DNA of 64,000 nt from Bergeyella sp. (GTDB lineage: Bacteria; Bacteroidota; Bacteroidia; Flavobacteriales; Weeksellaceae). Shown piece by piece: positions 510 to 27,273 of the stretch; the first letter of the stretch is position 1, and every line of letters starts with the position of its first letter. The stretch spans positions 372,001-436,000 of the forward strand of contig SZYB01000002.1 of the NCBI GenBank assembly GCA_030263285.1, in the 5' to 3' direction. The notes under the pieces were generated by a model. It did not search any database, was not told the origin of the DNA, and worked only from the letters and a program-made list of their open reading frames with translations. The position numbers and the translations under genes are program-made.

Positions 510-588
510 AAACAAAAAATATAAAATAGGGGTTCTTTAGGGGGATATTTTAATCTCAAAAATTAAGAGAGAACGATTGGTAATCCAT

Positions 589-2532
589 ATGAGTTTTTTA
601 CGAGACGCCAAGAATAAAATATACAGCGGGGATAATATTGTAAGCCTTTCGGACATTCGATATTTACCGAGGTGGGTTATTCTGATTATTGATTTGGTTA
701 TTGTTTTTTTTGCTGCTGTTTTTTCTAACCTCATTACGAAAAGAATAGGACATCAGACGGTTTTTTATGATAATTTTCTGGTATTCACCTTGATTCTCTC
801 TGTGAGTCTTTTTTTCATGTTTGTTTTTAAGACTTATTCGGGGATTATTCGCCATTCTACTTTTATTGACTTATTTAAACTGATCATTTCTACCTTTTGT
901 TCTGTCATTGCTCTTGGGGTTTTTCAAGGGATTTTTTACAGTATACTAGACGTAGAAATTATTTTCACTCCTTTTGCATTTTTGTCTATTTATGGGGCAC
1001 TTGCTATCATTTTTTTGTTTCTCTTTCGTCTCACGGTCAAAGAGTTTTTTTATTTTGCCAGAGAGTTCAGGAGAAGCGGACTGAAGAAAAGAGTTTTGGT
1101 ACTGGGGATCGGAGAGCAGTCTATTGCCATTGCAAGAGCGATTATAGATAACCCCGCCATGCCCTATTCTGTAGAAGGGTTTATCACGCAGCGTAAAGAT
1201 TATAATAGAGCGAAAATACTGGGCAGGAAGATTTATTTTAAAAAGAATATAGAAAAAAAATCGAAAGAAAATTTAGGGGTAGAGGGAGTAATTATTATTA
1301 AAGAAACGGTATCTCGGGATGAAATGATTCACTGGGTCAATTTATTTCTTGAGAAAGGCATCCAGGTTTTCAAGGCGCCTTCTGTACAAAAATTAAGAGA
1401 TCATGAGGTTGCTAACTCAATCAGGAATTTACAAATAGAAGATTTACTCAACAGAAAACCCATAATAATAAACAATACAGAGGTAAGCAAAACTCATTTT
1501 AACAAGAACATTTTGGTAACTGGAGGAGCGGGATCTATCGGATCGGAAATCGTGAGGCAAGTCGCCAAATTTAAGCCTGCTCTTATTGTGGTACTGGATC
1601 AGGCGGAGACGCCTTTGCACGACATAGAGAGGGAGCTTAAGAGCACGCTCCCTCATGTCAGGATGCGGTTTGTATTAGCTGATATTACGAATGCGAAACG
1701 AATGGAAAGTCTTTTTAAGAAAATGCATTTTTCCATGGTATATCACGCCGCTGCATATAAACACGTACCTACGGTGGAAGACAATCCTCATGAAGGGGTT
1801 TTTGTAAATGTTTGTGGGACCAAAAACCTAGCCACACTCGCCAGCAGGTATAAGGTAGACCGGTTTGTTATGATTTCTACGGATAAGGCTGTAAATCCTT
1901 CTAATGTAATGGGCGCCTCTAAGAGGGTGGCAGAACTTTTTGTTCAGGCTCTGCAGAAAGAGGAGGGAAATCACACGAAATTTATCACTACCCGATTTGG
2001 AAATGTTCTGGGGTCCAATGGTTCTGTGATTCCGTACTTTAAAAAGCAAATAGACGGAGGGGGTCCCGTGACCATAACGCATCCGGAAATCGTTCGTTAT
2101 TTCATGATAATTCCTGAAGCTTGTGAACTGGTATTGGAAGCGGGCACTATGGGAAAGGGTGGGGAAATTTATGTTTTTGACATGGGGGAGCCGGTCAAAA
2201 TTATAGATTTGGCAAAACGAATGATTCGTCTTTCCGGCTTTGAACCAGAAGTAGACATAAAGATTGTGTATACGGGGCTTAGACCGGGAGAAAAGCTTTA
2301 CGAAGAACTTTTGAGTGACAATTCGAAGACGGTGCCTACACACAATGACAAAATATTGATATCCAGAGATCAGGCTATGGAATACAAAAAGATAAAACGT
2401 TATGTTGATTTTCTTACGAGGGCAGTGCTGGAAGAAGAGTGCAATGAAGTGGTTAAAATTCTTAAAATGATAGTTCCGGAGTACAAAAGCAGGAATTCGT
2501 CTTTTGAAATGCTGGACCGAGAAATAGATTGA
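589..2532 (+). CDS. Membrane-anchored UDP-GlcNAc 4,6-dehydratase (CapD/WbpM/PglF family)
   Basis: The N-terminal part holds about four hydrophobic segments (roughly residues 20-160), followed by a CoA-binding-like domain and a C-terminal short-chain dehydrogenase domain. The NAD site TGGAGSIGSE is near residue 310. The catalytic region carries MGASK (Met about 441, Lys about 445), the Ser-Met-Lys variant typical of WbpM/FlaA1/PglF enzymes in place of Ser-Tyr-Lys. The family converts UDP-GlcNAc to the UDP-4-keto-6-deoxy sugar. With the PglE-like aminotransferase at 25.6 kb and the PglD/NeuD-like acyltransferase at 19.9 kb it would supply UDP-2-acetamido-4-amino-2,4,6-trideoxyglucose. The ATG at 589 is preferred over the in-frame TTG at 577. 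It is the first gene of the polysaccharide locus. Confidence 0.85.
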   Translation: MSFLRDAKNKIYSGDNIVSLSDIRYLPRWVILIIDLVIVFFAAVFSNLITKRIGHQTVFYDNFLVFTLILSVSLFFMFVFKTYSGIIRHSTFIDLFKLIISTFCSVIALGVFQGIFYSILDVEIIFTPFAFLSIYGALAIIFLFLFRLTVKEFFYFAREFRRSGLKKRVLVLGIGEQSIAIARAIIDNPAMPYSVEGFITQRKDYNRAKILGRKIYFKKNIEKKSKENLGVEGVIIIKETVSRDEMIHWVNLFLEKGIQVFKAPSVQKLRDHEVANSIRNLQIEDLLNRKPIIINNTEVSKTHFNKNILVTGGAGSIGSEIVRQVAKFKPALIVVLDQAETPLHDIERELKSTLPHVRMRFVLADITNAKRMESLFKKMHFSMVYHAAAYKHVPTVEDNPHEGVFVNVCGTKNLATLASRYKVDRFVMISTDKAVNPSNVMGASKRVAELFVQALQKEEGNHTKFITTRFGNVLGSNGSVIPYFKKQIDGGGPVTITHPEIVRYFMIIPEACELVLEAGTMGKGGEIYVFDMGEPVKIIDLAKRMIRLSGFEPEVDIKIVYTGLRPGEKLYEELLSDNSKTVPTHNDKILISRDQAMEYKKIKRYVDFLTRAVLEEECNEVVKILKMIVPEYKSRNSSFEMLDREID

Positions 2533-8135: not shown

Positions 8136-8540
8136 ATGACAGAGCCCACCATTATAAATCTCCCCAAAATATTAGACAGGCGTGGTAATCTATCTTTTTT
8201 TGAGTACCCCGGTCAGTTGCCTTTTGAGATTGCCAGGACGTATTGGATTTACGATGTTCCCGGGGGAGAAATAAGAGGAAGTCATGCTTTTAAGGAGCAG
8301 CAGGAGTTTATAATTGCGCTTTCCGGAAGTTTTGATGTTGTACTGCATGACGGCAAAAAAGGGGAAAGATTTTCTTTGAATAGATCCTACCACGGGCTTT
8401 ATATCCCCAGGATGTACTGGAGAAGTATGGAAAATTTTTCAACCAACTCCCTTGCGCTCATAATTTCTGATAAACAGTACGATGAGAACGATTATATAAG
8501 AAATTTTGAAGAGTTTAAAAAACAGAAAAACAATGTTTAA
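8136..8540 (+). CDS. FdtA/QdtA-family cupin (dTDP-4-keto-6-deoxyglucose 3,4-ketoisomerase-like)
   Basis: A 134-residue single-domain cupin of the WxcM-like/FdtA family. FdtA and QdtA move the keto group of dTDP-4-keto-6-deoxyglucose from C4 to C3 on the way to dTDP-Fuc3NAc or dTDP-Qui3NAc. The N-terminal 'DRRGNLSFFE' and the 'ARTYWIYDVP' and 'RGSHA' motifs match the family. The usual HxH pair in the active site reads His50-Ala-Phe52 here, so the second His is missing. It is followed with an 8-base overlap by a paralogue that keeps HxH. It may therefore be inactive alone, or work as part of a heteromer. Confidence 0.75.
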   Translation: MTEPTIINLPKILDRRGNLSFFEYPGQLPFEIARTYWIYDVPGGEIRGSHAFKEQQEFIIALSGSFDVVLHDGKKGERFSLNRSYHGLYIPRMYWRSMENFSTNSLALIISDKQYDENDYIRNFEEFKKQKNNV

Positions 8541-8946
8541 CGTAGAGGATTGTGACATTGTAGAATTACCGATTGTTCATAGTGAAAAGGGCAATATCAC
8601 CGTATTGGAAAACGGGGCAGGCATCCCTTTTGACATACGCAGAATATATTATTTATACGATATTCCCACGGGTGCTGGGCGCGGAGGGCATTCTCATTAT
8701 AGATTACAACAATTTGTGGTTGCCGTGGGTGGCTCTTTTACGTTTTTGCTGGATGACGGAACGCGTGAAAAGGAAGTTTTTCTAAACCGTCCGGATAAAG
8801 CATTGTTGATTAAACCAGGGATATGGAGAGAAATAAAAGATTTTTCCGGCGGCAGTATATGTCTGGTATTGGCTTCGCTGAAATATTCCGAAGATGATTA
8901 CATAAGAGATTATGGAGATTTTCTAGACTTCAGAAGAAATGGCTAA
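8533..8946 (+). CDS. FdtA/QdtA-family cupin, second copy
   Basis: A paralogue of the preceding gene, about 137 residues from the ATG at 8533. This ATG overlaps the previous stop (ATGTTTAA) and suggests translational coupling; a start at 8506 would overlap further and is less likely. It keeps the 'RGGHSH' motif (His53, His55) of the ketoisomerases but has Tyr where the family usually has Lys after the second His. The conserved '[10 protein letters not shown]' and '[10 protein letters not shown]' segments are present. It is the better candidate for the catalytic 3,4-ketoisomerase of the pair. The next gene overlaps its 3' end by 8 bases. Confidence 0.75.
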
Positions 8947-9427
8947 AATACACCCGTCATCAGACGTTCAGAGTGACAAGATTGGGGAGAACACAGTGAT
9001 TTGGCAGTATTGTGTGGTGTTAAAAGATGCCGTTATCGGTGATAACTGCAATATAAATTGTCAGGTTTTAATTGAGAACGATGTAAGGATAGGAAATAAC
9101 GTCACAATTAAGCCGGGAGTTCAGATTTGGAATGGTGTCACACTGGAGGATAATGTTTTTATAGGTCCCAACGTCACGTTCACCAATGATTTGATTCCCC
9201 GATCCAAAAAATATCCGGAAGTATTTCGTAAAACAAGAGTAAAAAGAGGAGCGTCCATAGGAGCCAACTCGACGATAATCGCAGGGAATACAATTGGAGA
9301 ACATGCCTTGATAGGAGCCGGGAGCGTGGTCACCAGGGATGTTCCGGCGAACACCGTCTGGTTTGGAAATCCGGCAAAACAAAGGGGAATAATTGATGAT
9401 CAAGGTGTTATTACTCCTCAAGACTGA
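8939..9427 (+). CDS. Hexapeptide-repeat sugar N-acyltransferase (FdtC/QdtC/WbbJ-like)
   Basis: A 162-residue left-handed beta-helix acyltransferase. Imperfect hexapeptides run through most of the protein (for example 'IGENTV', '[11 protein letters not shown]', '[10 protein letters not shown]'). The C-terminus is the usual '[22 protein letters not shown]'-type cap. By context, between the cupins and an FdtB-like aminotransferase, it should acylate the 3-amino group of dTDP-3-amino-3,6-dideoxyhexose using acetyl-CoA or another acyl donor. The sequence alone does not decide the donor. Confidence 0.82.
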
Positions 9428-9433
9428 GAGAGA

Positions 9434-10534
9434 ATGATAAAATTTCTAGATTTACAAAAGATTAATCTTGTTCATCAGCAAGAAATAGAAGAGAAAATTC
9501 TGCACACCTTTCGTTCGGGGTGGTATTTGTTGGGAGAAGAAGGAAAAAACTTCGAAGACAATCTGTCGGCATACACGGGCGCGAAATATGCCGTGGGGGT
9601 AGCCAGCGGTCTGGATGCGCTACGCCTTATTATCCGTGCTTATATGGAGTTGGGAATTATGCAAAAAGGAGACGAAGTTATTGTTCCCGCTAACACTTAT
9701 ATTGCTTCTGTTCTGGCCATTTCGGATAACGGATTGGTTCCGGTGTTGGTTGAACCCGACCTGGACAATTACAATATCGATGTTTCAAAAATCGAAGAAA
9801 AAATTACCCGTAAAACCAAAGCTGTTATGGTGGTGCACTTGTACGGCAGAATAGTTTTTTCGGAAGAACTGAGCAATATAGCCCAAAAATACGGGCTCAA
9901 AATTATCGAAGACAATGCTCAGGCAACTGGTGCAGAATATGACGGGGTAAAATCCGGAAATCTGGGAGATGCCGCAGGATGGAGTTTTTATCCCGGCAAA
10001 AATCTGGGTGCACTAGGGGATGCGGGTGCAGTGACAACGAGTGATAAAGACCTGGCAAAAACGATCAGGGTTTTGGCAAACTATGGATCCGATCAGAAGT
10101 ACATCAATGTTTATAAAGGTTTGAATTCCAGATTAGACGAAATTCAGGCAAGTGTCTTAAACGTGAAACTGAAATACATTGACGAAGAGAATGATAAAAG
10201 GAGAAAGATCGCCGAAAAATACGCTACACAGCTACAGAATCCCAAGATAATTCTTCCGGAATTACCAAAAAATGAAAAGGAACATGTTTGGCATCTTTTT
10301 GTAATCAGGACAAAAGAAAGGCGTTCACTTCAGAATTATCTTACGGATAAGGGAATTCAGACCTTGATTCATTATCCCGTTCCGCCGCATAAACAGAAAG
10401 CCTATAAGGAGCTGAACGGGTTAAGTTTTCCGGTCGCGGAGAAAATTCACGATGAAGTTTTGAGCCTGCCCATAAGCCCGGTAATGAATGAGGATGAGGT
10501 AACTAAAGTAATTGGATTTTTGAATGGGTTTTAA
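9434..10534 (+). CDS. dTDP-3-amino-3,6-dideoxyhexose transaminase (FdtB/QdtB-like, DegT/DnrJ/EryC1 family)
   Basis: A PLP-dependent sugar aminotransferase, 366 residues, full length. The PLP lysine lies in '[14 protein letters not shown]' (Lys about 189), and '[11 protein letters not shown]' holds the pyridine-contacting Asp. '[18 protein letters not shown]' is the usual C-terminal motif of FdtB/QdtB/DesV-type enzymes. It converts the 3-keto sugar made by the cupin isomerase into the 3-amino sugar. It belongs to the operon-like cluster 8136-10534, with gaps of six bases or fewer between genes. Confidence 0.87.
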
Positions 10535-11724: not shown

Positions 11725-13242
11725 GTGTATAGGAGGACTACATTTTTTTTCTTACTGAAAATTATAAAATTTCCCTTATCTATTATTTACCTTTCATTAA
11801 TTGTTAAAAATTTTGGTGTAGGACTTGATATGGATGCTTGGTTGGTTTCCTTATCGGTTACTACAATAATAGGATTAGCGGTTTGGGGATCAATGAATGA
11901 AGTATTTCGTTCTAGGTTTATAATTCTGAAAGAAAACACGGGAGCTGAAAAGGCCTTGCAGTATTCTCAATCTCTTATTTACTATGTCATTTTTTTTTCC
12001 TTTGTTCTGGTAATTCTTATAGAAATTTTTCCGTCATTCGTTGTTTCTGCTATGGCTCCAGATTTCAAGCCTAAAGATCAAGAATTTCTTGTTGGGATTC
12101 TCAGATTAGTTGCACCATGGCTAATATTCAATCAATTATCATTAATTCTCACCTCTATTCTGAATGCCTATGAGGTATTTTATGTTCCCGAATTTGCTTC
12201 GTTTTTCACTCAAGTTGTGAATATTATTATTATTTACTTTCTAGCAGGTAAATTTGGAATAAACTGCTTGGTTATTTCATTGTATGTTAGTGTTATTCTT
12301 CTTTCTTCACTTCTTTTGTATAGAATTAAAAAGCTAAAATTAAGACTATTTTCTCCCAAAGTACCTAGTTTCAAAGGATTTAAGTTTTTTTTTATTGCAT
12401 CAATACCGTTTTTTATTCCTTATTTTATGGGACAGGCTAACGGATGGGCTGAAAAGAGTTTGGCAACGGGTTTGGGAATTGGTTCTGTTTCCATTTTAGA
12501 TTTATCAAAAAAACTTCCTGACGTTTTCAATGGAATTTTGATATCTGTAACGTTGACAATTCTTACTCCAATTCTTACTAAGGCGTTTGCCAACAACGAA
12601 AAAAAAATTTACGAAACGGAGTTTACAAAGTCTTATCAGTTAAGTTTATTTTCTTTGACTGTTTTTATTGTTTTTTTTATTAATGCAAGTAATCCCTTAC
12701 TTCATTTACTATACGGGAGAGGTCCGATATCTGAGAAAGATATGTTGGAGGTTATTCGGTTAAGTAAATTTTATTCTATCACTGTTTTCTCAATTTTTTC
12801 TTACATCATATTCGGTGTCTGTATGTTATCCATTAACATGGGGAAGTTATATGCTCTTTACGGTGCAAGTGCTCAAGTGATGTCATTATTAACAAATTAT
12901 TTTTTTATAAAATTTTGGGGGCTATATGTTTTTCCGGTGTCTTGTTGTATTTCTCATTTAACCTTTGCGTTTTTTATGTTTTTAAAATATCCCTTTGGTA
13001 AAAAAAAGATTTTACTAGTTACTATTCAATATTATATTTTGGTTTTTCTATCTGTGGTGTTAGGAATTTTCTTGTTCAAATTATTTTCTTTTGAAGGTCA
13101 AAATGTGTTTTTGATGCACGTTATCAATATAATTATATCTTTTGTCATAAGTATTGTGTTAACTTCTTTTCTTGGAAAAGTTTTTAAGATCCCTGAAGTT
13201 TCCATACTTTACAACTACGCAGTAAATAAAATTTTTGGATGA
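11725..13242 (+). CDS. Wzx-type flippase (MviN/MurJ-like, MOP superfamily)
   Basis: A 505-residue integral membrane protein with about 12-14 hydrophobic helices and the MOP-superfamily layout closer to MurJ/MviN than to RfbX ('GLDMDAWLVSLSVT' near the N-terminus; 'IPYFMGQANGWAEKSLAT' in the middle). In this context it most likely flips the lipid-linked repeat unit. The GTG at 11725 keeps the whole first helix and is taken as the start, but no convincing ribosome site decides it. The following gene overlaps by four bases. From here to about 19.9 kb the DNA is visibly AT-richer than the flanks, as is usual for the serotype-specific core of such loci. Confidence 0.8.
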   Translation: MYRRTTFFFLLKIIKFPLSIIYLSLIVKNFGVGLDMDAWLVSLSVTTIIGLAVWGSMNEVFRSRFIILKENTGAEKALQYSQSLIYYVIFFSFVLVILIEIFPSFVVSAMAPDFKPKDQEFLVGILRLVAPWLIFNQLSLILTSILNAYEVFYVPEFASFFTQVVNIIIIYFLAGKFGINCLVISLYVSVILLSSLLLYRIKKLKLRLFSPKVPSFKGFKFFFIASIPFFIPYFMGQANGWAEKSLATGLGIGSVSILDLSKKLPDVFNGILISVTLTILTPILTKAFANNEKKIYETEFTKSYQLSLFSLTVFIVFFINASNPLLHLLYGRGPISEKDMLEVIRLSKFYSITVFSIFSYIIFGVCMLSINMGKLYALYGASAQVMSLLTNYFFIKFWGLYVFPVSCCISHLTFAFFMFLKYPFGKKKILLVTIQYYILVFLSVVLGIFLFKLFSFEGQNVFLMHVINIIISFVISIVLTSFLGKVFKIPEVSILYNYAVNKIFG

Positions 13243-19940: not shown

Positions 19941-20591
19941 TTGGTGAAAAAAATTGCAATTGTTGGAGCGGGAGGACATGGGCAGGAGGTGTTTTGTTTG
20001 TGGAGAGAGAGGGTTGTTTCTGAGGAGGGGGATTTTGAGTTTATTGGTTTTTTCGATGATAACCCGGCAAAAAAGAGTAATAAATACGGAAACGTAGTAG
20101 GAAATATAGAGCGTTTGAATAGCATTGGTTATGCTGTAGGGGTGGCGATTGCTGTTGGGAATAAAGACTATGTAAAAAATATAAAGTCGAGAATTAAAAA
20201 TCCCAACATTTTTTATCCCAATATTATCCACCCGAGTGTCGCTTTTTTGGACAGAAGCAATGTTGAAATAGGGATGGGAAATATTTTATCCGTAGACTGT
20301 ATCGTAAGCTGCAATACAAAGATTGGGGATTTTAATCTTTTGAACAACCGTGTAGTTATTGGACACGATGTGAGTTTGGGTAATTTTAATATTCTTAACC
20401 CCAATGTGATGATTTCCGGATCAGTGACCATCCGGGACGAAAATTTTTTTGGGTTTAATTCGGCTGTTTTACAAGGCAGAAGAATAGGAAGTAATAATAC
20501 TCTTTCTGCTGGAAGTATTTTGTTGCGACATATCGGAGACGGACAGACTTATTTTGGCGTTCCGGCCAAGAAAATGACTTTAGAAAAGTAG
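19941..20591 (+). CDS. NeuD/PglD-family sugar O/N-acyltransferase
   Basis: A 216-residue two-domain protein. An N-terminal Rossmann-like domain ('IAIVGAGGHGQEVF') precedes a left-handed beta-helix of hexapeptide repeats. The catalytic-type His lies in 'NNRVVIGHDVSLG', as in PglD. PglD transfers acetyl from acetyl-CoA to the 4-amino group of UDP-4-amino-4,6-dideoxy-GlcNAc. Here the gene stands directly before an ACP/KAS III module, so an ACP-bound acyl donor is an attractive alternative (inference). The start is TTG at 19941 or GTG at 19944. Confidence 0.83.
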   Translation: MVKKIAIVGAGGHGQEVFCLWRERVVSEEGDFEFIGFFDDNPAKKSNKYGNVVGNIERLNSIGYAVGVAIAVGNKDYVKNIKSRIKNPNIFYPNIIHPSVAFLDRSNVEIGMGNILSVDCIVSCNTKIGDFNLLNNRVVIGHDVSLGNFNILNPNVMISGSVTIRDENFFGFNSAVLQGRRIGSNNTLSAGSILLRHIGDGQTYFGVPAKKMTLEK

Positions 20592-20597
20592 GTTATA

Positions 20598-20825
20598 ATG
20601 GAGGAAAAACAATTTTTAGAAAATTTTTCATCAATTTTTGATGAAGTGGAAGCCAATCAATTGACTATGGAGACCAAATTTAAAAACATCGGCGAGTGGA
20701 GTTCGCTATCGGCGTTGGGTCTTCTGGCGGTGATGGATGAGGAATATGGTGTCGAGCTAAATTATAATGACATAAATAATTCGGAAACTGTTCGAGATAT
20801 TTTTGATATTATAAAAAATAAATAA
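20598..20825 (+). CDS. Acyl carrier protein (first copy)
   Basis: A 75-residue acidic four-helix protein of the PP-binding family. The expected phosphopantetheine Ser is Ser36 in 'GEWSSLSALGLL'. The residue before it is Ser in place of the almost universal Asp (DSL), so the site is atypical, though the rest of helix 2 fits an ACP. It is followed with no gap by the KAS III gene, its likely partner. A holo-ACP-synthase is not present in the window. Confidence 0.75.
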   Translation: MEEKQFLENFSSIFDEVEANQLTMETKFKNIGEWSSLSALGLLAVMDEEYGVELNYNDINNSETVRDIFDIIKNK

Positions 20826-21878
20826 ATGGCATTTGTTTGTATTCCCGATGTACACATTAGGGGGCTGGCGGCTTGTGTGCCAAAAAATGTAGTCAGGAAT
20901 AGCTCTTTGACAGACGTGTTTCCTGTTGAAGAACTGGAGAAAGTCATAAGTTCTGTAGGCATAGAGGAGAGGCGTGTTGCAGATAGTGGTGTTTGTGCTT
21001 CAGATTTATGCTGTCACGCTGCCGAGAAGCTGTTTGCAGATTTAAATGTTGATCGTTCTTCTATTGACGTCTTGATTTTCATGTCTCAGACTGCAGACTA
21101 CAAAATACCTGCAACTTCTACTATCTTACAGGACAAACTGGGCTTATCCCGGGAGACCATTTGTTTTGATGTATCCCTTGCATGCAGTGGGTATGTTTAT
21201 GCTTTAACTACAGCCTTTTCATACCTGAATCTTCCTGATATTAATCAGGTATTGCTATTGGATGGCGAGACCTTTTCTAAGATAGTCAATCCGAAAGATA
21301 AAACAAATGCTTTGTTATACGGTGATGCAGGTACCGCTACACTCTTGGAAAAACATGACGGGACAGATTTTTTCTGTCAGTTAAATACCGATGGTTCGGG
21401 ATGGGATGCTGTTAACATTCCCGGGGGGGGCGGCAGAAATCCATTCAACGAAAGCAGCCTTAAGGAAGAAATCCGGGAAGACGGCAGTTGTGGGAATAAC
21501 GTACAGCTCTATATGAACGGGATTGACGTATTTAATTTTACCATGAAGGTTGTTCCCAAGAGCATTAGACAAACGCTTGAAAAAAGCAAGATGGATATGG
21601 GGATGATTGATAAGATTGTTTTTCATCAAGCAAATAAATTTATGACAGATTTTTTTATAAAAAAATTAAAATATCCTTGTGAAAATGTGCCTTACAGTCT
21701 GCACAAGTTTGGTAATACAAGTTCAGCAACCATTCCTTTAACGATTGTAAGCGAGTTGTCTGATTGGACTTCGGACAGAAAAAAGGTACTTTTGAGCGGT
21801 TTTGGTGCGGGGCTTTCATGGGCAACTGCAATAACAGATTTATCGGAAACTCACATAAGTAAAATAATTGAGGTATGA
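20826..21878 (+). CDS. 3-oxoacyl-ACP synthase III-like condensing enzyme
   Basis: A 350-residue thiolase-fold KAS III (FabH-like) protein with the full catalytic triad: Cys120 in 'SLACSGYVYAL', His267 in 'FHQANKF' and Asn297 in 'GNTSSA'. FabH enzymes condense a CoA- or ACP-bound primer with a malonyl-type ACP thioester. Located between an ACP and a VOC/FkbH pair in a polysaccharide locus, it is probably dedicated to a special acyl group and not to bulk fatty acid synthesis. A run of eight Gs (21423-21430) encodes the conserved PGGG turn. Confidence 0.83.
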   Translation: MAFVCIPDVHIRGLAACVPKNVVRNSSLTDVFPVEELEKVISSVGIEERRVADSGVCASDLCCHAAEKLFADLNVDRSSIDVLIFMSQTADYKIPATSTILQDKLGLSRETICFDVSLACSGYVYALTTAFSYLNLPDINQVLLLDGETFSKIVNPKDKTNALLYGDAGTATLLEKHDGTDFFCQLNTDGSGWDAVNIPGGGGRNPFNESSLKEEIREDGSCGNNVQLYMNGIDVFNFTMKVVPKSIRQTLEKSKMDMGMIDKIVFHQANKFMTDFFIKKLKYPCENVPYSLHKFGNTSSATIPLTIVSELSDWTSDRKKVLLSGFGAGLSWATAITDLSETHISKIIEV

Positions 21879-22270
21879 TGAGGTTGCATCATTACGGGCT
21901 TGCCACAAAATCTGTGGACAGAAGTTTAAAAGAATTTGAAAAATTGGGCTATACCAGAGTTTCCAACAATATAGTTGATCCTGTTCAGGGGGTAGAATTG
22001 TTGTTTATTGATAACAATGCTGGTCATCTTATCGAATTGGTTTCCCCGGTGTCTGATAGGAGTCCGGTTAATAGGATATTGGAAAAGGTAGGGTTGTCAA
22101 TTTATCATATTTGTTATGAAGTAGAAGATTTAGATAACGTAATTGCCGAATTCAAATCGAAGCGCTTTATTAAAGTGATGAAGCCTACTCCTGCCACAGC
22201 TTTTGGCAATAAAAGAATCTGTTTCTTATACAATGCGTTAACGGGTTTGATAGAACTATTGGAAAGATGA
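21875..22270 (+). CDS. VOC-family protein (methylmalonyl-CoA epimerase/glyoxalase-like)
   Basis: A 131-residue vicinal-oxygen-chelate protein with two beta-alpha-beta-beta-beta modules. The four expected metal ligands are visible: His near the N-terminus ('RLHHYGLA'), Glu in 'HLIELVSP', His in 'IYHICYEV' and Glu in 'LIELLER'. The closest recognised family is methylmalonyl-CoA epimerase, which suggests epimerisation at the alpha carbon of an acyl thioester. It overlaps the KAS III and FkbH-like genes by four bases on each side, consistent with coupling in one pathway. Confidence 0.72.
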   Translation: MMRLHHYGLATKSVDRSLKEFEKLGYTRVSNNIVDPVQGVELLFIDNNAGHLIELVSPVSDRSPVNRILEKVGLSIYHICYEVEDLDNVIAEFKSKRFIKVMKPTPATAFGNKRICFLYNALTGLIELLER

Positions 22271-23847
22271 GGAACTATATATACAGGAACTATACCGTAG
22301 AGCACCTTTTTGATAAAAATTATGATTTTAGCGGATATGGAGATGTGTGTAATCCATCGGGAAAAGAGTATAAAGATTCTTTTATATTTTTTCAGGTTGA
22401 CCCGTCTCTCCCCCCGAAAGAACAGATACAGGAAATAGATGAAATTGTATCGAAAGTCTCTTTCGTAATAGGAAATAATGATTATGGCAGACTTATAATA
22501 TTCACGATTTTTGAAGACAGAAATAGGGACTGGCAAGTTAAAAATCCCGATTTATTTATTGCATTAAGAAACTATAATGACTTTATTCGTGACCAATCTG
22601 CCGTAAACTCAAAAATCAAGATTTTTGATGTCAATGGGTTGTATCAAGAAGAATTTAATGTCATTGATTGGAAATTTTTTTTCACTTCTCAAATGATTGT
22701 CAGCCCAAAGCTTTCAAAGAATTTTAAGCTGTGGTTTAATCGTCAACTTGATGCCTTGGATTTAAAAAGAAAGAAGTGTCTTATTTTGGATTGTGATAAT
22801 ACGCTCTGGGGAGGAGTGGTAGGAGAAGAAGGTACTCATGGCATAAAATTAGGGCAGGATTACCCGGGCATATGTTTTTCTAATTTTCAAAAACTTTTAA
22901 AATCCTTGTCTGAAACGGGAGTCATTCTCGCTGTATGTAGTAAAAATAACCTTTCAAATGTGCAAGATGTGTGGAGGAACAACCCCAACCAGATTATTAC
23001 AGATAAAGTACTTTCTGCTTACAGAATCAACTGGCAGGATAAGGCATCAAACATAAAATCCATTGCTGAAGAATTGAATATTGGTCTTGATAGTTTAGTG
23101 TTCTTAGACGATAACCCTGCCGAGAGAGCACTTGTGAAAGAATTTTTACCTGAGGTCGAAGTACCCGAGTTTCCTAACAAACCCTACTTATTGATTGACT
23201 ATTTTTGGGAAGTATATAATTTGTATTTCAATGTTTATGAATTATCCCATGAAGATATAAAGAAAACGGATCAATACAAGGAAAACTTTTTCAGAAATGA
23301 GAGTAAGAAGGTTTTTGAAAATATCGATGACTATCTTAGGAGTTTGGATATTAAAATTGATATTATGTCTGCAAATGAGAGTAATGTTTTGAGAATTGCT
23401 CAGATGACTCAAAAAACCAATCAGTTTAACTTAACGACAAAGAGATATAGCAAGGAGGAAATAGAGAAAATTATTAACAACGGAGGAAAGGTTTATTGTG
23501 CTGGTGTAAAAGACAAGTTTGGAGATAACGGAATAACAATTGCGGCGATTATTAAAGAAGAGCCGGATTATTTTGATATAGATTCTTATTTGCTGAGTTG
23601 CAGGATTTTAGGCAGAAATATAGAAAAGGCTGTTTTGTTAAGAATACTTGATCGTCTCATCAAAGAAGGGCAGAAACCAATAAGAGCCAAATTTATTCCC
23701 ACGAGTAAAAATGCGGTGGCATCAACGTTTCTAGATGATGTTGGGTTTAAACTAATTAGAGAGGGGTTCGATGGGGTTAAATATTACGAATATTCGAAGG
23801 ATAACAAAATAAAAAATAAAGATTATTATACGATAAGCTTTTCGTAA
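22267..23847 (+). CDS. FkbH-like HAD-superfamily protein (glyceryl-ACP synthase-like)
   Basis: A 526-residue protein of the HAD-IIIC/FkbH family. An N-terminal domain of about 165 residues precedes the HAD core with 'LDCDNTLWGGVVGEEG' (nucleophile Asp about 175), 'VCSKNN' and 'VFLDDNPAERALV'. The C-terminal GNAT-like domain contains 'MTQKTNQFNLTTKRYS' and 'LSCRILGRN'. Characterised FkbH proteins take 1,3-bisphosphoglycerate and load a glyceryl (or related C3) unit on an ACP. That activity would provide a hydroxylated starter or extender for the neighbouring ACP and KAS III (inference). Confidence 0.8.
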   Translation: MRNYIYRNYTVEHLFDKNYDFSGYGDVCNPSGKEYKDSFIFFQVDPSLPPKEQIQEIDEIVSKVSFVIGNNDYGRLIIFTIFEDRNRDWQVKNPDLFIALRNYNDFIRDQSAVNSKIKIFDVNGLYQEEFNVIDWKFFFTSQMIVSPKLSKNFKLWFNRQLDALDLKRKKCLILDCDNTLWGGVVGEEGTHGIKLGQDYPGICFSNFQKLLKSLSETGVILAVCSKNNLSNVQDVWRNNPNQIITDKVLSAYRINWQDKASNIKSIAEELNIGLDSLVFLDDNPAERALVKEFLPEVEVPEFPNKPYLLIDYFWEVYNLYFNVYELSHEDIKKTDQYKENFFRNESKKVFENIDDYLRSLDIKIDIMSANESNVLRIAQMTQKTNQFNLTTKRYSKEEIEKIINNGGKVYCAGVKDKFGDNGITIAAIIKEEPDYFDIDSYLLSCRILGRNIEKAVLLRILDRLIKEGQKPIRAKFIPTSKNAVASTFLDDVGFKLIREGFDGVKYYEYSKDNKIKNKDYYTISFS

Positions 23848-23868
23848 ATCAACAACTTACAAGTAATA

Positions 23869-24093
23869 ATGAGAGAAAAAATTATAGCAGCAATGTCCGT
23901 CGTTTTTGAGTTGGAAGCAGATCGGTTTCCGGAAGAAATCTATCAGGAAAACATTGAAAATTGGGATTCTTTAAGGCATCTTAATTTGATTGTTGAACTA
24001 GAAGATAGATTTGATGTGTCTTATGAACCTGAAGAAATATCCGAAATGACTTCTCTGGATAAAATAATGGAGGTCACTAAGTCGAAAATATGA
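23869..24093 (+). CDS. Acyl carrier protein (second copy)
   Basis: A 74-residue ACP with a canonical attachment site, Ser34 in 'NWDSLRHLNLI'. It follows the FkbH-like gene by 21 bases and overlaps the SDR gene by four bases. The pairing FkbH-ACP is the standard arrangement for C3-unit loading, so this copy probably receives the FkbH product, while the first ACP may carry the other condensation partner (inference). Confidence 0.82.
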   Translation: MREKIIAAMSVVFELEADRFPEEIYQENIENWDSLRHLNLIVELEDRFDVSYEPEEISEMTSLDKIMEVTKSKI

Positions 24094-24839
24094 TGGAAGG
24101 GAAAAAAATTTTGCTGATTGGGGGATCTTCCGGAATAGGTAGTGCAACCGCTGTTCATCTATCTAAATGTGGAGCAAAGCTCGTTCTTATTTCAAGAAAT
24201 GCCAATAAGCTAAAGGAGGTAGTCAGCAAATGTCATGGAACTGGTCACGAGATATTTTCCGCTGATGTTCAGGATGATAAGGAGATTGAACTTTTTTTGG
24301 AACAAAATGTAAAAGGTACGGCTCAGTGTATTGATGGTATGGTATACTGTGTGGGAAAAGAAGGAACAATACCGGTTAAGTTATTAAAAAAGCGGACTTT
24401 AGAAGATATTATCTCCGTAAACACAGTTCCGGCAGTTTTAATTTCAAAAATTTTGCTGAAGAATGGTATTTTGAATAAAAACGGGGGGGCATTTGTTTTT
24501 ATCAGTTCTGTGATGGGGTCATTGGGACAGCCGGCTAAAGTTGCATATTGCATGTCAAAAGGGGCGTTAAATGCCGCAACAAAAGCATTGGCTTTGGAGT
24601 TAGCGCCAAAGAATATTAGAGTGAATAGCATTTCTCCTGGAATGGTAGTCACTGAGATGTCTCAGAAAATACTCAACTCTATTGACGAAGAGAGTATCAA
24701 CAATATAAAGAAGATGCATCCTCTTGGTTTGGGTTCTGTAGATGATGTGGCAAACGGTGTAGAGTTTCTCTTGTCGGATAATTCTAAATGGATCACCGGC
24801 ATAGATTTATTGATTGATGGTGGTTATAGTGCTCAATAG
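24090..24839 (+). CDS. SDR oxidoreductase (FabG-like 3-oxoacyl-ACP reductase)
   Basis: A 249-residue classical short-chain dehydrogenase. The cofactor motif is 'GGSSGIGSA' near residue 10. The catalytic Tyr153 and Lys157 lie in 'YCMSKGAL', with Ser in 'FISSVMGS'. The C-terminus 'WITGIDLLIDGGYSAQ' is typical of FabG. It would reduce the keto group after the KAS III reaction, leaving a hydroxyacyl-ACP. It is the last gene of the acyl module. Confidence 0.83.
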   Translation: MMEGKKILLIGGSSGIGSATAVHLSKCGAKLVLISRNANKLKEVVSKCHGTGHEIFSADVQDDKEIELFLEQNVKGTAQCIDGMVYCVGKEGTIPVKLLKKRTLEDIISVNTVPAVLISKILLKNGILNKNGGAFVFISSVMGSLGQPAKVAYCMSKGALNAATKALALELAPKNIRVNSISPGMVVTEMSQKILNSIDEESINNIKKMHPLGLGSVDDVANGVEFLLSDNSKWITGIDLLIDGGYSAQ

Positions 24840-24920: not shown

Positions 24921-25529
24921 ATGTACAGACTCTTTTTTAAAAGGTTAATTGATGTACTGGTTTCTCTCTTCGCATTGGTGCTTTTAAGTCCTGTGTTTTT
25001 GGTTCTTACCATTTGTCTCTCTTTTGCAAATCGTGGAGGTCCTTTTTTTTTTCAGAAAAGACCAGGGAAAGAGGGAAAGATTTTCAGTATCGTAAAATTC
25101 AAAACGATGACGGACAAAACAGACGGTGAGGGTAATCTTTTGCCTGATGCAGTCCGACTCACCAAGCTTGGCCTTTTCGTGCGTAAGACTTCTTTGGACG
25201 AGATTCCTCAGCTTATCAATGTTTTAAAGGGAGATATGTCTTTAATTGGTCCCAGGCCTCTTTTGGTGTCTTATTTGCCGTTATATAATAGAACTCAGGC
25301 GAGAAGACATGACATAAAACCCGGTATTACGGGATGGGCACAAGTTAATGGACGTAATGCGATATCCTGGGAGCAGAAGTTTGAATATGATGTTTGGTAT
25401 GTTGATCATGTATCTTTTTGTGTGGATTTGAAAATTGTTCTTTTTACCCTTAGGAAGGTAATAAAGAAGGAAGGTATATCGGGTGAGGGACATGTGACGA
25501 TGGAAAAGTTTAAGGGGGGTCAAATATAA
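24921..25529 (+). CDS. Initiating sugar phosphotransferase (PglC/WcaJ C-terminal type)
   Basis: A 202-residue monotopic phosphoglycosyl transferase of the small PglC form. One N-terminal membrane helix is followed by 'FFQKRPGKEGKIFSIVKFKTM', 'LDEIPQLINVLKGDMSLIGPRPLL' (with the Asp-Glu catalytic pair) and 'KPGITGWAQVNGRN'. PglC attaches UDP-diNAcBac-type sugars to undecaprenyl phosphate. The adjacent PglE-like gene supports a UDP-2-acetamido-4-amino-trideoxyhexose donor. Confidence 0.87.
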   Translation: MYRLFFKRLIDVLVSLFALVLLSPVFLVLTICLSFANRGGPFFFQKRPGKEGKIFSIVKFKTMTDKTDGEGNLLPDAVRLTKLGLFVRKTSLDEIPQLINVLKGDMSLIGPRPLLVSYLPLYNRTQARRHDIKPGITGWAQVNGRNAISWEQKFEYDVWYVDHVSFCVDLKIVLFTLRKVIKKEGISGEGHVTMEKFKGGQI

Positions 25530-26703: not shown

Positions 26704-27273
26704 ATGACATATGCAAAAAATGGCAAAGTAGTGTTTGATTATATTTTTTCATTTTTTCTTGTTCTGTTGTTCAGTCCCTTGTGCGCTGTTTTGTTGGTTC
26801 TTACCAGTATAGATACAAGGTCTTTGGGTATTTTCTATCAGAAAAGAATAGGACAATACGGGAAAAGTTTTACACTTTATAAGTTCAAAACGATTCATGA
26901 TAAAACCCATAAAATTTCTCCATTGGGAAAGTTTTTAAGGCAATTCAAAGTGGATGAGCTTCCACAGTTGTTTAATATTTTGAAGGGAGAAATGAGCTTT
27001 GTGGGTCCCAGACCTGATATAGAGGGGTATTATGATAGACTTTCGGGAGAGATGCGTACGATTTTAGAGCTTAAGCCCGGGCTTACTTCTGAAGCGAGTA
27101 TAAAATACAGACACGAAGAAGGAATACTCGCTACAAAAAAGAATCCATTAAAGTTCAATGACGAGGTGGTCTTTCCGGATAAGATAAAAATGAATCTGCA
27201 TTATCTGCAAACTTTGTCCTTTAAGAAAGATATGGTTATTCTTATAAAAACGTTTTTCAAAATATTGGCATAA
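26704..27273 (+). CDS. Second bacterial sugar transferase (phosphoglycosyl transferase family)
   Basis: A 189-residue protein with one N-terminal hydrophobic helix. It has the family motifs 'FYQKRIGQYGKSFTLYKFKT', 'VDELPQLFNILKGEMSFVGPRPD' (Asp-Glu pair present) and 'LKPGLTSEASIKYRHEE'. All core motifs of small PGT enzymes are there, so it looks active. It is distinct in sequence from the first copy at 24.9 kb. Either the two recognise different UDP-sugars, or one of them serves another glycan. Confidence 0.82.
   Translation: MTYAKNGKVVFDYIFSFFLVLLFSPLCAVLLVLTSIDTRSLGIFYQKRIGQYGKSFTLYKFKTIHDKTHKISPLGKFLRQFKVDELPQLFNILKGEMSFVGPRPDIEGYYDRLSGEMRTILELKPGLTSEASIKYRHEEGILATKKNPLKFNDEVVFPDKIKMNLHYLQTLSFKKDMVILIKTFFKILA

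Follow-up and report, generated by a model that had tools for sequence, protein, structure and literature searches.

A candidate glyceroyl-primed acyl-ACP pathway for amino-sugar N-acylation in Bacteroidota surface glycan loci

Introduction

What acyl group would be made by a set of acyl carrier protein (ACP) and condensing-enzyme genes that lies inside a surface polysaccharide locus, and onto which sugar would it be placed? This question is raised by the window studied here, a stretch of 64,000 nucleotides from Bergeyella sp. (Weeksellaceae; GenBank assembly GCA_030263285.1, contig SZYB01000002.1, positions 372,001 to 436,000). In this 1.68 Mb genome, six intact open reading frames (ORFs) at window positions 20598-24839 encode ACP1, a 3-ketoacyl-ACP synthase of type III (KAS III), a VOC protein, an FkbH-type protein, ACP2 and a short-chain dehydrogenase/reductase (SDR), all within a capsule or O-antigen locus. 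Use of this cassette in amino-sugar N-acylation is strongly supported. Judged from its genes, it is probably a dedicated acyl-ACP pathway that takes a glyceroyl starter from glycolysis, extends it with one malonyl unit and delivers a trihydroxypentanoyl group to the 4-amine of the amino sugar Qui2NAc4N.

Two elements of this proposal are already known: the type II acyl-ACP N-acylation of amino sugars, as proposed for Flavobacterium psychrophilum, and the use of glyceryl-ACP by FabH-like enzymes in tetronate biosynthesis. For the R1 group of the F. psychrophilum O-polysaccharide, the genes wfpC-wfpG encode two KAS enzymes, an ACP, a ketoreductase and a PglD-like protein, and were proposed to place 3,5-dihydroxyhexanoyl on the 4-amine of UDP-Qui2NAc4N (PMC6519341). 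The glycerate-utilisation operon of tetronate pathways comprises the FkbH-like Mad7, the ACP Mad8 and the FabH-like Mad16 (PMC7489565). ACP and fatty-acid genes are also known from flagellin glycosylation islands (PMC7874193; PMC4875605). A search of the open-licence literature returned no paper tying FkbH to an O-antigen, a polysaccharide, pseudaminic acid or another surface glycan.

Organisation of the cassette

The six genes are as follows:

20598-20825, forward strand: ACP1; PP-binding domain at 18.1 bits (cut-off 20.8), attachment site Ser36
20826-21878, forward strand: KAS III of the FabH type; PF08541/PF08545
21875-22270, forward strand: VOC protein of the glyoxalase / methylmalonyl-CoA-epimerase fold; PF13669 at 66 bits, nearest solved structure 3hdp
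22267-23847, forward strand: FkbH-type HAD-IIIC protein, a putative glyceroyl-ACP synthase; TIGR01686 at 277 bits (cut-off 147), with an N-terminal domain, a HAD domain and a GNAT-like domain
23869-24093, forward strand: ACP2; PP-binding domain at 15.1 bits (cut-off 20.8), attachment site Ser34
24090-24839, forward strand: FabG-like SDR, proposed 3-ketoacyl-ACP reductase; PF13561 at 166 bits

An earlier sequence-only reading of the window had described six tightly packed genes between a PglD-type acyltransferase and a PglC-like enzyme, with an intact Cys-His-Asn set in the KAS III. ORF and family searches bear out this layout, including four-base overlaps at KAS III/VOC, VOC/FkbH and ACP2/SDR, and the residues of the condensing type, Cys120, His267 and Asn297, are invariant among 63 KAS III sequences. 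Both ACPs are divergent; they fall short of the Pfam gathering cut-off for PP-binding and likewise of the cut-offs of the NCBIfam ACP models. The VOC protein scores 58.7 bits against the methylmalonyl-CoA epimerase equivalog TIGR03081, below its cut-off of 115.

The other catalytic positions are equally well kept. In FkbH, the HAD aspartates and the Cys-Ser-Lys motif (Asp175, Asp177, Cys224, Ser225, Lys226 and Asp281) are invariant in 80 sequences, as is Ser34 of ACP2; Ser36 of ACP1 is invariant in 61. The same holds for Ser140, Tyr153, Lys157 and Asn111 of the SDR (n = 39), for His142 of PglD (n = 53) and for His6, Glu54, His78 and Glu127 of the VOC protein (n = 67), which we take, from what is known of the family, to be the four metal ligands. 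This conservation supports the view that the cassette proteins are working enzymes, and the invariant Cys-His-Asn, Ser-Tyr-Lys and PglD histidine fit condensation, reduction and N-acylation. An AlphaFold2 model of FkbH reached a mean predicted local distance difference test score (pLDDT) of 86.6 and a predicted template modelling score (pTM) of 0.60; Foldseek searches paired the N-terminal and HAD regions of the model with structure 3slr and other regions with GNAT folds. Assignment of the VOC chemistry from the type of ligands was tried and dropped, as alignment did not separate glyoxalase I from methylmalonyl-CoA epimerase.

Core and extension among relatives

Relatives were gathered by an FkbH-alignment scan of 84,980 species, which gave 174; the best 80 were kept and are the basis of all locus counts reported here, and 65 of them have enough flank around FkbH to be called full-context loci. 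Most of the relatives belong to Bacteroidota, including named Chryseobacterium, Flavobacterium, Bergeyella, Odoribacter and Tannerella. In a sample of the family that included Bergeyella cardium and Weeksellaceae bacterium TAE3-ERU29, FkbH was found in four other genomes at 59-63% identity, three of them with the full cassette and one with a natural short form. The short form L037, on the same contig as L057, reads PglC-PglD-VOC-FkbH-ACP2-aminotransferase and has no ACP1, KAS III or SDR. Weeksellaceae TAE3-ERU29 has the short form, and Chryseobacterium jejuense the full cassette. Comparison of gene neighbourhoods, which the sequence-only reading had put forward as a check, showed that several genera keep the cassette order beside PglD, PglC and sugar genes. 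The arrangement is not a product of chance, as Bergeyella, Chryseobacterium, Flavobacterium and Chitinophagaceae all share it.

Among the full-context loci, ACP2 follows FkbH in 60 of 65, and VOC is present in 55. The window-type KAS III occurs in 51; ACP1 occurs in exactly those 51, and both genes are absent from all of the other 14. Across the FkbH tree, 12 switches in the state of the extension were counted, at least 7 of them on strongly supported branches. All six independent phylogenetic pairs show KAS III and ACP1 changing together (p = 0.031), while VOC varies on its own. From this co-occurrence it follows that ACP1 is the partner of KAS III and ACP2 the partner of FkbH. The counts and joint changes thus divide the cassette into an FkbH-ACP2 core, VOC as its frequent companion, and an exchangeable extension of KAS III and ACP1, often with the SDR. 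That FkbH-ACP2 forms one unit and KAS III-ACP1 another is strongly supported by these comparisons of gene content.

Several variants of the cassette were observed as well. In the locus L090:50-11817 and similar loci of rumen Prevotellaceae and Muribaculaceae, the FkbH cassette is accompanied by an extra ACP pair and a second KAS III; these loci also encode a 489 aa protein resembling an AMP-dependent ligase (putative), and they may build longer chains. In Chryseobacterium-type genomes, the row L054:8790-14384 (L045 is similar) holds FkbH, a methyltransferase, an ACP, VOC, an MBOAT O-acyltransferase and a protein of about 310 aa, for which no Pfam match was found. By analogy, this row resembles the logic of Dlt-type D-alanylation, with glyceroyl, possibly O-methylated, in place of D-alanine. 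Near-identical FkbH sequences on very short branches were found in a contig of an archaeal metagenome-assembled genome (MAG) of Methanofastidiosia (L133) and in a Sedimentibacter MAG contig (L115), reflecting either recent transfer or a binning error.

A KAS III clade linked to FkbH

In the KAS III tree, a single clade with support 97/98 unites the window-type enzymes from FkbH loci, and every KAS III from an FkbH-less locus, even in the same genera, lies outside it. A KAS-first search of 395 genomes sampled across the phylum added 12 new loci. None of them has FkbH, and the KAS III of each falls outside the clade; the window was the only FkbH-linked case. Many of the enzymes found in this way form a sister clade and lie beside ACP1, SDR and PglD. 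At KAS III position 328, all 31 clade members carry Ala, whereas all 41 others carry Val, Thr or Ser, a difference that offers only a lead toward primer specificity. Furthermore, in Chryseobacterium-type loci the slot between PglC and the aminotransferase is filled by either an FkbH cassette (L058) or an FkbH-less cassette with two KAS genes (L175, L178, L179). The clade split and the shared slot would be expected if FkbH-ACP2 replaces an acetyl starter and the adjacent KAS III became specific for glyceroyl.

Some FkbH-less two-KAS cassettes also encode, near the SDR gene, a putative protein of about 360 aa with a Rieske-like CSHR motif (L175:5806-6882 and L168:9040-10128), which hints at an oxygenase that acts on the acyl chain.

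Sugar genes and the proposed pathway

The genes that would make and use the acceptor sugar are these:

577-2532, forward strand: PglF-type membrane UDP-GlcNAc 4,6-dehydratase; TIGR03589 (PseB) at 195 bits over residues 309-590, below the cut-off of 408
19941-20591, forward strand: PglD/NeuD-type acyltransferase; PF17836 (PglD_N) and Hexapep above cut-off
24921-25529, forward strand: PglC-like phosphoglycosyl transferase; PF02397 at 207 bits
25555-26691, forward strand: LegC/PglE-like aminotransferase; TIGR04181 at 386 bits, just under the cut-off of 420

The part of the PglF-type protein that precedes the TIGR03589 match resembles polyprenyl glycosylphosphotransferases, and the enzyme is presumably the source of the 4-keto sugar. 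PglD scores 154 bits against TIGR03570 (cut-off 161), and PglC adjoins PglD in many of the related loci. The set of PglF, LegC/PglE-like, PglD and PglC proteins follows the logic of UDP-Qui2NAc4N-acyl synthesis and undecaprenyl phosphate loading established for Campylobacter. Similar reasoning on PglF, PglE and PglD has been applied to the acylation of UDP-Qui2NAc4N (PMC6519341). Genes for FabD and a phosphopantetheinyl transferase are present in the genome.

Taken together, these genes suggest the following route. FkbH would dephosphorylate 1,3-bisphosphoglycerate and put a glyceroyl unit on ACP2, and VOC would possibly set or invert C2 of the resulting thioester, a C2-epimerase role that is weakly suggested. 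KAS III would then condense glyceroyl from ACP2 with malonyl on ACP1 to 4,5-dihydroxy-3-oxopentanoyl-ACP1, which the SDR would reduce to 3,4,5-trihydroxypentanoyl-ACP1. PglD would move this group to the 4-amine of UDP-Qui2NAc4N, for which the PglF-like dehydratase would provide the 4-keto sugar and the LegC/PglE-like aminotransferase would install the amine, and PglC would commit the acylated sugar to undecaprenyl phosphate for polysaccharide assembly. Here, we infer each substrate as well as chain length, stereochemistry and the role of VOC, and glyceroyl would be the KAS III primer with a single addition of malonyl.

Upstream in the window lie genes for polysaccharide export and chain-length proteins and for nucleotide-sugar enzymes, followed, past a group of FdtA-type genes, by glycosyltransferases; downstream genes were taken from their translations as rfbC, rfbB and rfbA. 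The FdtA group (8136-10534) consists of an FdtA-like isomerase, a hexapeptide acyltransferase (8939-9427) and a second DegT aminotransferase. Together with rfbA/B/C, it suggests that the polysaccharide contains a second amino sugar, a dTDP-3-acylamino-3,6-dideoxyhexose. Directly after the LegC/PglE-like aminotransferase comes another small gene that resembles phosphoglycosyl transferases (26704-27273; TIGR03025 at 147 bits, below cut-off); the locus therefore holds two candidate initiating enzymes.

The N-glyceroyl group of Tannerella forsythia

The S-layer glycan of T. forsythia ATCC 43037 ends in pseudaminic acid (Pse) carrying N-acetimidoyl and N-glyceroyl groups (PMC6388019). In a published analysis of the corresponding gene cluster, the gene for the N-glyceroyl group was termed elusive, and no function was given to the ORFs between the pse genes (PMC6120980). 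One of the FkbH relatives (L067) comes from the Pse cluster of this type strain, in which PseB, PseC, PseH, PseG and PseI pass the equivalog cut-offs. There, VOC-FkbH-ACP2 lies between pseH (8919-9542) and pseG (11850-12815), and the order pseB-pseC-pseH-VOC-FkbH-ACP2-pseG-pseI is found in L076, a second locus. Because of this position between pse genes and the family of the enzyme, VOC-FkbH-ACP2 is a strong candidate for the missing supply of glyceroyl in T. forsythia, with PseH as the transferase. The short form, confined to VOC-FkbH-ACP2, would deliver glyceroyl without extension.

As in the window, VOC-FkbH-ACP2 in the T. forsythia CMP-Pse cluster (Pse5Am7Gra) adjoins the N-acyltransferase gene of an amino-sugar pathway, and here the glycan bears N-glyceroyl; unlike the window, the cluster has no KAS III, ACP1 or SDR, and its product is a nonulosonic acid. 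A possible parallel is offered by Campylobacter jejuni, whose flagellin glycosylation locus includes HAD-IIIC, fabH2 and ACP genes, a point for which our literature search gave no paper. Di-O-methylglyceric acid on Pse has been described (PMC3068675).

Comparison with known systems and alternative explanations

The wfp genes of F. psychrophilum share with the window an ACP, KAS, a ketoreductase and a PglD homologue beside genes of the PglF/PglE type. However, the R1 group has two KAS genes, and no FkbH, VOC or second ACP is named for it (PMC6519341), whereas the window combines one KAS III with all three, and its KAS III belongs to a clade apart from those of FkbH-less loci. Acetyl would serve as the starter in F. 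psychrophilum; glyceroyl is proposed for the window cassette. The sequence-only reading had drawn this parallel, which holds for a related type of module; F. psychrophilum represents a sister type without a reported FkbH, and the N-glyceroyl group of T. forsythia is the closer functional match.

A rival explanation that we regard as unlikely, though the most serious, is that the cassette makes two unconnected acyl groups: 3-hydroxybutanoyl, from acetyl-CoA and malonyl-ACP by way of KAS III-ACP1-SDR, and glyceroyl, made separately by FkbH-ACP2, with one or both going onto amino sugars. FkbH-less relatives of the KAS III do occur with ACP1, SDR and PglD alone, and the window locus encodes a second amino-sugar pathway (FdtA-like protein, aminotransferase and acyltransferase). 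Yet there is a single acyltransferase inside the cassette, its genes interleave in an order that is conserved, and the KAS III clade is found only beside FkbH, distinct from the FkbH-less enzymes of the same genera. It is improbable, by comparison, that the acyl group forms an O-ester, or that it goes onto the 3-amino sugar of the FdtA-type genes in place of the 4-amine. A related FkbH-ACP-VOC set in Chryseobacterium-type genomes adjoins an MBOAT O-acyltransferase, but no MBOAT was found among the identified neighbours of the cassette; PglD stands directly beside ACP1, and the FdtA group has a hexapeptide acyltransferase gene of its own.

Other uses of a glyceroyl-loaded ACP have been described. 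Methoxymalonyl-ACP synthesis of the FK520 type employs the same loading enzyme and a free ACP (PMC7489565), and VOC resembles methylmalonyl-CoA epimerases; glyceroyl-ACP2 might accordingly be oxidised to a hydroxymalonyl-ACP extender, with which KAS III would condense acetyl-CoA. This is highly improbable: the two dehydrogenases and the O-methyltransferase of that pathway are absent from the window cassette, no gene for an FkbI/FkbK-kind acyl-ACP dehydrogenase or 3-hydroxyacyl dehydrogenase was found in it, and a known N-glyceroyl glycan accompanies the short form. Least probable of all is a free secondary metabolite such as a tetronate. The tetronate operon likewise joins FkbH and a free ACP to form glyceryl-ACP as the substrate of a FabH-like enzyme, but that enzyme releases a polyketide as the tetronate ring, whereas malonyl extension, reduction and transfer to a sugar are proposed for the window. 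No polyketide synthase was found among the ORFs and family matches examined around the cassette, and several genera have the module enclosed by PglD, PglC and sugar genes, which together make a free metabolite unlikely. Moreover, the SDR would presumably remove the 3-keto group required for closure of the tetronate ring.

Several observations temper the glyceroyl-primed pathway itself. The chemistry in Bergeyella sp. is a prediction from genes, and the KAS III clade indicates co-evolution with FkbH rather than specificity for glyceroyl. As the relatives were collected through FkbH, that collection cannot by itself establish that FkbH always accompanies this KAS III, and the 395 genomes of the KAS-first search are only a sample. 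As some FkbH loci hold a second KAS III (KAS-B), a single condensation per chain does not apply everywhere. Of the 51 KAS III loci, 23 had no SDR detected within 9 kb of FkbH; in L090, the one SDR-negative locus inspected, a fragment of an SDR is present at the edge of the locus. Finally, the T. forsythia genes were placed by position, and the acyltransferase there is the GNAT protein PseH, not PglD.

Conclusion

The claim of the sequence-only reading that an ACP-bound hydroxyacyl group is made for a 4-amino sugar is supported by gene content, by catalytic residues, by the exclusive linkage of the KAS III clade to FkbH and by its co-location with genes of the PglF, PglE, PglD and PglC types. 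Its view of the module as an acyl-ACP pathway stands; it had given VOC no role and had not treated the FkbH-ACP2 core and the KAS III-ACP1-SDR extension as separate parts. A broader proposal, for which we see slightly less than an even chance, is that of a general glyceroyl-primed acyl-ACP system, fed directly by glycolysis, that makes polyhydroxylated N-acyl groups for surface amino sugars of Bacteroidota, in which VOC would epimerise a hydroxyacyl thioester on ACP, the core would be the missing T. forsythia pathway, and the product would be glyceroyl alone or an extended C5 trihydroxy acid, the module being exchangeable with acetyl-primed ones.

For the reading of such loci, a simple rule is offered: FkbH-ACP2 would denote a glyceroyl starter, and KAS III-ACP1 chain extension. 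For a family of Bacteroidota polysaccharides, the predicted acyl group is 3,4,5-trihydroxypentanoyl, which would add 90.03 Da over N-acetyl. For the oral pathogen T. forsythia, associated with gum disease, FkbH, ACP and VOC provide candidate genes for the N-glyceroyl group of its nonulosonic acid.

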